A stretch of DNA of 64,000 bases from Halorussus rarus (GTDB taxonomy: Archaea; Halobacteriota; Halobacteria; Halobacteriales; Haladaptataceae): the NCBI RefSeq assembly GCF_003369835.1, contig NZ_QPMJ01000002.1:1488001-1552000 (forward strand). Direction: 5' to 3'. Positions 25,184 to 62,135 of the stretch are shown here, piece by piece. The notes beneath the pieces are model-generated. The model worked only from the letters and a program-made list of their open reading frames with translations. It ran no database searches and was not told the origin of the DNA. The position numbers and the translations under genes are program-made. Position 1 is the first letter of the stretch; the number at the start of each line of letters is the position of its first letter.

Positions 25184-26359
25184 ATGAGCAGACACGGGAC
25201 AGAGATACGCCTGGCGACGCGGGGGTCGGACCTCGCGCTCCGGCAGGCGGGCGAAGTCGAGGCCGCTCTCGAGGACCGGCGCTTCGAGGTCGAACTCGTG
25301 GAGGTCGAGACGACCGGCGACGAGATACGCGACGAGCTCATCCACCGGCTGGGCAAGACCGGCGCGTTCGTCCGGAGCCTGGACGAGAAGGTGCTGTCGG
25401 GCGAGCTCGACGGCGCCATCCACTCGATGAAGGACATGCCGACAGACAGCCCCGACGAGCTGGTGGTCGCGGCCATCCCCGAGCGGGCCAGCGCCAACGA
25501 CGTGCTGGTGACCCCCGACGGCGAGAGCCTCGACGACCTCCCCGAGGGCGCGACGGTCGGCACCTCCAGCCTCCGGCGGCAGGCCCAGCTGCTCCACCAC
25601 CGCGAGGACCTGGACGTCCAGCCGCTCCGGGGCAACGTCGACACTCGGGCCGAGAAACTGCTCGCGCCCGCGCTCCAGCGCGAGCACGAGCGCCGCACCG
25701 AGGCCGAAGCGGAGGAACGCTCGGACAAGGCGAAGGCCCGGAAGGGCCACAAGAAGGAGTACGAGGGCGAGTTCGACCGGACCGTCGAGGAGTGGTTCAA
25801 CGACCTCGCCGAGATCGAGCGCCGGGCGCTCGAGCGCGAGGTCGAGACCGAGTACGACGCCATCGTGCTGGCGCAGGCGGGCCTCGAACGCAGCGGGCTG
25901 GCCCACCACCTCGAGTACGTCGAGCTCCCGAGCGGCGAGTTCGTGCCCGCGCCGGGCCAGGGCGCGCTCGCGGTGACGGCGCTCGACGGCGAGCTGGCGA
26001 GCGACGTCAACGCGGTGCTCGACCACCCCAGGACGCGGGTCGAGACCACCGTCGAACGGACCATCCTCGCGGAACTCGGCGGCGGGTGCGTCGCGCCCAT
26101 CGGCGTCCACGGGCTCATCCAGGGCGAGCACGTCCACGTCGACGTCCAGGTGTTCTCCCAGGACGGCGCGGAGGTCGTCGAGGCCAGCCGGGACGTGCCG
26201 GTCGAGAACCACGTCGCGGCCGCCAAGGAGCTCGCGGCCGACCTCGCCGACCGGGGCGCCGACGAGCTCATCGCGGCCGCCACGGCGGACGCCGACGCCG
26301 ACGAGCCGGAGGGCAAGCGCGGCGAGTCGGTCCACGAGGAGGACGTCGAGGATGAGTAG
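25184..26359 (+). CDS. hemC: Hydroxymethylbilane synthase (porphobilinogen deaminase)
   Basis: A 391-residue enzyme that polymerises four porphobilinogens. Motifs: LATRGSDLALRQAGEV, HSMKDMPTD, VGTSSLRRQAQLLHHRE, LRGNVDTRAEKL, and the cofactor Cys in LGGGCVAPIGVHG. It is about 80 residues longer than bacterial HemC. The extra part is mostly a Lys/Glu-rich insertion at about residues 165-230 (around RKGHKKEYEGEFDRTVEEW), as in haloarchaeal homologues, plus an acidic tail. It overlaps hemD by eight bases, so the two are co-translated. Confidence 0.94.
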   Translation: MSRHGTEIRLATRGSDLALRQAGEVEAALEDRRFEVELVEVETTGDEIRDELIHRLGKTGAFVRSLDEKVLSGELDGAIHSMKDMPTDSPDELVVAAIPERASANDVLVTPDGESLDDLPEGATVGTSSLRRQAQLLHHREDLDVQPLRGNVDTRAEKLLAPALQREHERRTEAEAEERSDKAKARKGHKKEYEGEFDRTVEEWFNDLAEIERRALEREVETEYDAIVLAQAGLERSGLAHHLEYVELPSGEFVPAPGQGALAVTALDGELASDVNAVLDHPRTRVETTVERTILAELGGGCVAPIGVHGLIQGEHVHVDVQVFSQDGAEVVEASRDVPVENHVAAAKELAADLADRGADELIAAATADADADEPEGKRGESVHEEDVEDE

Positions 26360-27146
26360 CGAGGTCCGGGTCGCGGTCTTCCGACCGGACGACGAGCGCC
26401 TCGCGGAGGCCGTGGAGCTGCTGGACTCGCTGGGCGCCGACCCGGTCGCCGACCCGATGCTCGAAGTCCGGCCGACCGGGAACGCGCCCGAGGCGGGCGA
26501 CTACGTCGTCCTGACGAGCAAGACCGGCGTCGAGCTCGCGGCCGGGGCCGGGTGGGAGCCGGGCGAGGTCTCCGCGAGCGAAGCGAGCGGAGGCTCGGAA
26601 GAGCGGGAATCTTCCGGTGCCACCGTCTGCGCCATCGGCGAGAGCACCGCCGACGCACTCCGCGAGGCGGGCTACGAGGTCGACGTCGTGCCCGCGGAGT
26701 ACTCCTCGACCGGCCTGGTCGAGGCCCTCGAGGACGAGGTCGCGGGCCAGCGGGTCGAGGTGGCCCGCAGCGACCACGGGAGTCCCGTTCTGACCGAGGG
26801 GCTGGCGGACGCCGGCGCCGACGTAAATGAAACTGTGCTATATCAATTGGTGCGCCCCGAGGGCTCGGGCGAATCCGCGGAACTCGCCGCGGAAGGCCGT
26901 CTCGAGGCCGCTCTCTTCACTTCCTCGCTGACCGTGGCCCACTTTCTCGAGGCCGCAGACGAGCGCGGCGTCCGCGAGGCGGCCGTCGCGGGGCTGAACG
27001 ACGCCGTGGTCGGCGCTATCGGCGAGCCGACCCGCGAGACCGCCGAGAGCGAGGGCATCGCGGTCGACGTGGTGCCGGAGGTCGCGGACTTCGAGCAGCT
27101 GGCGTGCGCGGTGGTCGAGGAGGCCGCGCCGTCGTATAACGGCTGA
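26352..27146 (+). CDS. hemD: Uroporphyrinogen-III synthase
   Basis: A 264-residue enzyme closing and inverting ring D of hydroxymethylbilane. Recognisable are VAVFRPDDERLAEAVELLDS, VVLTSKTGVEL, AIGESTADALREAGYEVDVV, FTSSLTVAHFLEAA and VGAIGEPTRETAESEGIAVD. The start overlaps hemC. Residues about 72-89 (EVSASEASGGSEERESS) are encoded by an in-frame copy of a dispersed hairpin repeat (26563-26619), between the first TGVEL helix and the ATVCAIGESTA strand. The frame is intact, so the enzyme is probably still made with an extra surface loop. Confidence 0.9.
   Translation: MSSEVRVAVFRPDDERLAEAVELLDSLGADPVADPMLEVRPTGNAPEAGDYVVLTSKTGVELAAGAGWEPGEVSASEASGGSEERESSGATVCAIGESTADALREAGYEVDVVPAEYSSTGLVEALEDEVAGQRVEVARSDHGSPVLTEGLADAGADVNETVLYQLVRPEGSGESAELAAEGRLEAALFTSSLTVAHFLEAADERGVREAAVAGLNDAVVGAIGEPTRETAESEGIAVDVVPEVADFEQLACAVVEEAAPSYNG
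26563..26619 (+). repeat. Double-hairpin repeat unit embedded in hemD
   Basis: Two hairpins in tandem: CTCCGC - gagcgaagcga - GCGGAG (26570-26592) and GGAAGA - gcgggaa - TCTTCC (26597-26615). The same unit with different but still pairing stems lies at 27215-27269 (CTGCGT/ACGCAG and GTCAGA/TCTGAC). The first loop and linker are the same in both. Here it is read in frame as protein. Confidence 0.8.
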
Positions 27147-27170
27147 CCGCGGTATTTTCAGAACTGGTGT

Positions 27171-27363
27171 CCGGCGCGCGCTGGCGCGGCCCCTGTGGCC
27201 GCGCCGATATGCGCGAGGTCTGCGTGAGCGAAGCGAACGCAGGCTCGTCAGAGCGTGCTCTGACGGTGGAGGCGGCCGCGTTTATGCGGCCGCCGAGGCT
27301 GGGGAGGGGGAGGCCCGCGGCCGCGGTGTGGTGCGGTACAGAGGTACCGGCAGTAGCTAGCTC
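27171..27363 (+). repeat. Structured repeat B, left arm of the kptA-flanking pair
   Basis: The 347-base gap after hemD is mostly this repeat. It starts with CCGGCGCGCGCTGGCGCGGC, includes the double-hairpin unit found in hemD, then a GGCGGCCGCG/CGCGGCCGCC-like stem and GGGGAGGG, and ends TGCGGTACAGAGGT ... CAGTAGCTAGCTC. Both ends recur in reverse complement at 28252-28419, on the other side of kptA. A kptA promoter may lie in the A/T-richer bases 27364-27430 (ACAGTTTATCG). Confidence 0.85.
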
Positions 27364-27493
27364 AAACGCAATTCCCCTCACAGTCACTGCATCACCCCCT
27401 TCACCGCGAAACAGTTTATCGAATCCCTCTAATCTACGAACCGACAATCGACGCCGAGCCGCCTTTCCGCGACGAACGACTACCTCCGACAGC

Positions 27494-28419: not shown

Positions 28420-28508
28420 TCGTTGAGTCCCGCTCATCGAAGCGTCGAGAGACGTCCCCGAGCCGCCAAGCGGAGGTTTATAAGCGATAGCGACCTACCT
28501 GCCCTCGA

Positions 28509-62010: not shown

Positions 62011-62135
62011 TGAAAGGGGCCGTCCGGTCGCGGGCCGGAGGCCCGTGGTCGTCTGACCGACCCCTATCCGAAGGCGAGCGAAGCGAGCCGAGGATATGTC
62101 GGTCAGTGACCGCGACCGGGCGGGGGCTTTCGAGA
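62011..62135 (+). repeat. Structured repeat A, copy 2
   Basis: Same ends as the copy at 37381: TGAAAGGGGCCG and CGGGGGCTTTCGAG. CCGTCCGGTCGCG (62021-62032 region) pairs with CGCGACCGGGCGG (62111-62123), with one G-T wobble where copy 1 has a G-C pair. Inside: CGGGCC-gga-GGCCCG (62031-62045), CTGACCGAC/GTCGGTCAG (62052-62106) and GGC-gagcgaagcga-GCC with the loop also found in hemD. It fills much of the 392-base gap between mdh and hel308; no other gene lies there. Confidence 0.8.

Follow-up and report, generated by a model that had tools for sequence, protein, structure and literature searches.

A very small, probably mobile double-hairpin element of haloarchaea with compensated stems and in-frame copies in conserved genes

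Two copies of an unusual double hairpin lie in the window, by which we mean the whole 64,000-nucleotide stretch of Halorussus DNA that was analysed, and we consider it probable that they represent a mobile palindromic element of haloarchaea that is very small and non-autonomous and is copied or moved in trans as a folded single strand. The element consists of two adjacent hairpins of about 50 nt with the consensus 5'-GTCTNNNN-GA-RC-N3-GY-GA-NNNNAG-GCT-CG(N6)...(N6)CG-GYG-3'. As far as sequence comparison can establish it, the copies form a dispersed family in which the outer bases, the linker and the cap are fixed and the stems vary freely but pair. Within the same limits, the unit is shown to be a discrete module, with GTCT at one end and CGGYG at the other, whose insertion duplicates no more than one base and which sits in frame in several conserved genes.

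A sequence-only reading had placed one copy inside hemD and the other in a repeat beside kptA, and both placements are confirmed (Table 1). Read at its coordinates, unit 1 is GTCTCCGC-GAGCGAAGCGA-GCGGAGGCTCGGAAGAGCGGGAATCTTCCGGTG and unit 2 is GTCTGCGT-GAGCGAAGCGA-ACGCAGGCTCGTCAGAGCGTGCTCTGACGGTG, which gives the common form GTCTNNNN-GAGCGAAGCGA-NNNNAGGCTCG-hairpin-CGGTG. This agrees with the earlier statement that the two share their loop, linker and outer bases, and that both stems differ yet still pair. Rfam covariance models returned only chance-level matches, none of them at the unit positions. The composite hairpin-rich repeat that flanks kptA in inverted copies is roughly 190 bp long, and many further copies of it are present in the genome.

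Table 1 Features of the two units and their host loci (window coordinates).
Feature	Position	Strand	Basis and remarks
Unit 1, double hairpin inside hemD	26568-26619	+	Pattern match; net insertion of 51 nt = 17 codons; absent from 26/26 relatives
Unit 1, hairpin 1	26570-26592 (arms CTCCGC 26570-26575 / GCGGAG 26587-26592)	+	Sequence; family covariation
Unit 1, cap GAGCGAAGCGA	26576-26586	+	GA opposite GA, two base pairs, GAA triloop
Unit 1, hairpin 2	26596-26616 (arms CGGAAGA 26596-26602 / TCTTCCG 26610-26616)	+	Sequence; folding
hemD, uroporphyrinogen-III synthase, host of unit 1	26352-27146	+	ORF; Pfam HEM4, E 2.5e-46
Unit 2, double hairpin within left composite repeat beside kptA	27218-27268	+	Sequence; pattern match
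Unit 2, cap GAGCGAAGCGA	27226-27236 (arms CTGCGT 27220-27225 / ACGCAG 27237-27242)	+	Sequence; folding
Unit 2, hairpin 2	27246-27265 (arms CGTCAGAG / CTCTGACG)	+	Sequence; folding
Left composite hairpin-rich repeat flanking kptA, carries unit 2	27167-27365	+	Alignment with right copy and other genome copies
Right inverted copy of composite repeat, without unit	28252 to 28430-28440	-	Alignment

The loop GAGCGAAGCGA is found four times in the window, where 0.20 occurrences are expected, and at 60 sites in the genome (4.37 Mb, 7 contigs), 13 of which have a contiguous flanking stem of at least 6 bp, against 0.56 expected when the flanks are shuffled. A pattern describing the unit matches 28 times in the genome and twice in the reversed control, and all 17 congeners are positive. 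When the pattern was made strict, fixing the outer bases, the linker and a degenerate cap and leaving the stem arms free, it retrieved 25 complete units here, each of 14 congeners yielded 4-29, and no reversed control gave any. In a class-wide sample, at least one match was found in 115 of 394 haloarchaeal genomes and in 41 of 86 genera, again with reversed controls at zero; copy numbers are highest in Halorussus, and no contig of IMG/VR matched the unit, so that no viral carriage was seen. These counts are of copies and not of evolutionary events, and pattern searches overlook degraded copies. When hairpins of 6 bp with 11-nt loops were counted de novo in a 464-kb sample, the loop GAGCGAAGCGA appeared only in the two window copies, so the cap is not a general property of hairpins in this genome. 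The folding energies of the single copies do not differ significantly from those of shuffled sequences (z = -1.2 and -1.3); we therefore dropped them as evidence, and the case for the element rests on the family.

The variation in the stems is compensated throughout the family. The 124 distinct units carry 35 different 5' arms of stem 1, and in 94 of them all four free base pairs of this stem are Watson-Crick, compared with a mean of 6.9 and a maximum of 17 when the 3' arms are shuffled (2000 trials). For hairpin 2, 94 units likewise show pairing of 7 bp or more, against 15.1 on shuffling. Restricting the count to distinct arm combinations, which limits the effect of kinship among copies, leaves 27 of 49 fully paired against 1.4 (maximum 7, 5000 shuffles), and sliding the register by one base lowers stem pairing from 93% to 18-19%. 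The proposal that compensated stems lie beneath conserved loops is thus borne out by arm shuffling, with covariation far above what composition would give, and the refuting condition set in advance for the stems is not fulfilled. The accompanying proposal, that the element is selected or generated as a hairpin, fares less well: the covariation is real, but selection and generation are separate hypotheses between which the data do not yet choose, and any cause, whether a hairpin needed for copying or the rewriting of arms, is inference only. Mismatches read on the + strand show a slight excess of G.T (25) over A.C (16), and G.T intermediates are few overall (25 of 1364 cells). Stem differences between paired copies comprise 22251 transversions and 12182 transitions, counted over sequence pairs that are not independent events. 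An identical hairpin 2 is found with up to four different, fully paired stem-1 types, which indicates that the hairpins reassort.

The 11-nt loop has the consensus GA-RC-N3-GY-GA. Its inner pair covaries (G-C in 86 units, A-T in 33, mismatched in 5); 122 of the 124 units have C-G as the next pair. The pattern used had imposed GA at the loop ends and a G.A in the triloop; in a second reading that left the loop letters free, 73 of 73 loops both start and finish with GA, and the triloop is GNA in about four fifths. Many of these loci were retrieved through GAGCGAAGCGA, so the triloop frequencies are biased. GA opposite GA in the cap constitutes a tandem G.A mismatch. GCGAAGC is a very stable DNA mini-hairpin with the motif d(GCGNAGC), and the usual cap core of the unit, also GCGAAGC, is the same motif. 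A GNA triloop is a feature of this mini-hairpin; about a fifth of the unconstrained loops carry another triloop, and the likeness is one of sequence alone. Because the cap joins a tandem G.A mismatch to this stable DNA mini-hairpin, we infer that the folded form is more likely DNA than RNA.

The hemD site is empty in every relative compared. The 26 relatives without the segment are 16 congeners and 10 family members, so the objection raised in advance, that all hemD homologues might carry it, fails. The insertion adds 17 residues in frame between the junctions GGCGAG|GTCT and CGGT|GCCACC, and in an AlphaFold2 model it is predicted to be disordered, with pLDDT below 50 for residues 73-87 and confident values elsewhere (mean 86.9). 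The Kae1-Bud32 gene has an insertion of 48 nt relative to Halorussus and other relatives. An NAD-kinase-like gene carries a further one at a site that is empty in 16 of the 18 species compared and occupied in another species by a degraded unit. Each of these three insertions is found in only one or two of the species compared. Four further genes hold related hairpin inserts, some of which are other hairpin types, and two of which are common to one further species. The boundaries are unclear in BirA, where unit-like inserts occupy a variable loop in many species and the gene's own codons form, and so appear to supply, the 5' arm. Only 2 of 30 loci from relatives lie in convincing ORFs, so, short of a systematic survey, the majority of copies are likely to lie outside genes.

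Several side observations concern the same genes and their surroundings. The Kae1-Bud32 gene (locus L037) has a second in-frame insert, SVSESHSEARRTQSDG, near its N-terminus, and in-frame inserts of other hairpin types occur in conserved genes at loci L251, L252, L002/L260 and L033/L269, some of them in two Halorussus species. A single TnpB gene was found in the genome (L346:1360-2619, C3:100455 region); it encodes VAGSDATGGSSGWPDGG, apparently a decayed unit that had inserted into this gene. At loci L013 and L014, units lie directly upstream of tRNA genes, their 3' hairpin arm apparently running into the 5' end of the tRNA.

The element had been thought able to enter coding DNA and keep the frame. 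Such insertions are evident in hemD, Kae1 and others, but frame-keeping is not intrinsic to the element: units range from 49 to 67 nt, and only 67 of 124 have an insert length, taken as the unit less one nucleotide, that is divisible by three. Hairpin-1 caps within ORFs are read in one frame, and full units give VSxSEAxGGSSDxSDG. Of the six frames, only this one, sense frame 0, is clearly acidic (+1.35; others -4.5 to +0.07); it contains stops in 9 of 124 units. All in-gene copies are in the sense orientation, which we attribute to selection for the only acidic frame, and for this reason orientation was dropped as a clue to mechanism. The gene-borne copies are a subset of the right length, in the one acidic and mostly stop-free frame.

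Evidence that the unit itself moves comes from one congener, in which identical units stand in unrelated flanks; in the cleanest pair (L325/L326) identity starts exactly at GTCT and stops just past CGGTG. Movement is inferred here from aligned copies and was not observed. Insertions have no constant tetranucleotide upstream. Several copies are embedded in larger composite repeats, among them the repeat that flanks kptA both with and without the unit, and some of these copies (e.g. L320-L322) may have moved together with those repeats. The Y1_Tnp domain is absent from the unit-bearing genome with its 28 copies and from seven other Halorussus, and across the genus its presence does not correlate with unit copy number (rho 0.15, p 0.54). 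The unit motif was not found near the single TnpB gene or six Y1_Tnp loci, other haloarchaeal IS605 elements being outside this survey. The Y1/RAYT and IS605-end hypotheses are thus unsupported, and neither a RAYT nor a PATE model fits as far as tested. Two options for movement remain live: a folded single-stranded intermediate handled in trans, and template switching on the hairpin.

Rickettsia palindromic elements (RPEs) are selfish palindromic DNA of about 150 bp, bacterial, that is found in frame in unrelated conserved protein genes (PMC10969869). The unit resembles them in its in-frame insertion into conserved genes (hemD, Kae1, the NAD-kinase-like gene and others) and differs in its smaller size, its archaeal hosts and its stems, which vary with compensation under a constant cap. 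REPs of the GTAG and CGTC superfamilies, surveyed in bacterial phyla, are short hairpins present in many copies, whose stem residues vary but stay complementary; they often occur in pairs, some are intragenic, and the CGTC REPs have no dedicated transposase (PMC3733652). Our unit is also short, palindromic and multicopy, but it has no unpaired GTAG/CGTC tag, starting instead with GTCT as part of the stem and finishing with CGGYG; its constant part is the cap and linker, and it lacks the link to a Y1/RAYT transposase, in its own genome and genus-wide. Haloquadratum walsbyi has transposase-free mobile repeats termed SMRs, PATEs and MITEs; SMRs and PATEs leave no target duplication, SMRs measure about 80-110 bp, carry terminal inverted repeats, target other mobile elements and have a mobilisation called enigmatic, and PATE ends relate to IS605 ends (PMC3119063). 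The unit, by contrast, is shorter than SMRs and has no terminal inverted repeats, and targeting of mobile elements was not found for it, nor were IS605-related ends at the TnpB gene and six Y1_Tnp loci checked. It also differs from MITEs, as GTCT and CGGYG are not inverted repeats and at most 1 bp is duplicated. For each of REP, RPE, SMR and MITE, one or more of the defining traits checked is missing, and the PATE assignment has no support, so we file the unit among small mobile palindromic repeats. On the best reading it is an archaeal counterpart of REPs and RPEs that works like an RPE or an intragenic REP, with the reservation that no RPE sequences were compared. A literature search, thin on subscription journals, found no named haloarchaeal element of this kind.

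We hypothesize that an activity supplied in trans would copy or move the unit as a folded single strand, more likely of DNA than of RNA. Mainly fold-competent copies would then propagate, so that the structure is kept as the sequence drifts; hairpins 1 and 2 would be reassorted by recombination at the constant AGGCTCG linker. A copy in a gene would persist only if its insert length is divisible by three, it is read in the acidic frame and it falls in a tolerant loop. The closest competitor, possible if unlikely, dispenses with a transposase: template switching on the hairpin as the DNA replicates (quasi-palindrome correction) would copy one arm from the other, and microhomology-mediated switching onto units already present would make new copies. 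The minimal target duplication and lack of a resident mobiliser suit it, as do the prevalence of transversions and the few G.T intermediates, which block rewriting would give, and the resemblance of the target to the unit's 5' arm in BirA and the gene at locus L001. However, great age and GC-rich composition could also yield the transversion counts, which come from non-independent pairs, and the constant ends and identical complete units in unrelated flanks look like module mobility. A speculation that we hold only loosely is an element defined by shape and not by sequence, in which the hairpin pair moves single-stranded and an unidentified archaeal activity propagates it. Each arm would serve to rewrite the other, or both would be re-templated when the unit inserts, and stems of many sequences would thus stay paired beneath a constant cap.

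The covariation and class-wide presence could also reflect a functional RNA or DNA hairpin, such as a regulatory or mRNA-stability element, kept by selection site by site after an old and incidental dispersal, and the slight G.T excess and the copies near tRNA genes would fit this. We find it improbable, as the hemD, Kae1 and NAD-kinase-like sites are not conserved, one NAD-kinase-like copy is degraded, the host genes have no common regulatory logic and Rfam offers no match. An IS200/IS605 relic of PATE or REP/RAYT type, its two hairpins being fused ends recognised by a Y1 transposase, is disfavoured and has little going for it beyond two near-terminal palindromes and the absence of target duplication, as in Haloquadratum PATEs (PMC3119063); against it stand the Y1_Tnp and TnpB results above and the lack of a constant upstream tetranucleotide. 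That the loop letters (GAG/GCG/AGC runs) are common haloarchaeal codons, and that single copies fold unremarkably, might suggest chance similarity from GC-rich codon usage, but near-zero controls accompany a covariation and a clean insertion relative to 26 relatives that refute it. A mobile element copied in trans remains the reading we prefer.

Rickettsia is the best-known setting for palindromic DNA inserted in frame into conserved genes. Archaea now show the same phenomenon: roughly half of the haloarchaeal genera sampled have the unit, Halorussus carries dozens of copies, and empty sites are clear between sister species. Two questions become testable: what moves tiny repeats without a recognisable transposase, and how the two arms of a stem come to change in step. 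Haloarchaeal proteins contain peptides such as VSASEASGGSSDSSDG, which are explained as mobile DNA, and the unit motif can be used for annotation. The same cap also occurs in another repeat, ATCC-GA-GGC-GA-GC-GAA-GC-GA-GCC-GA-GGAT, at 62064-62100 of the window and at loci L020, L036, L038 and L045, where two successive tandem GA mismatches lie within one stem.
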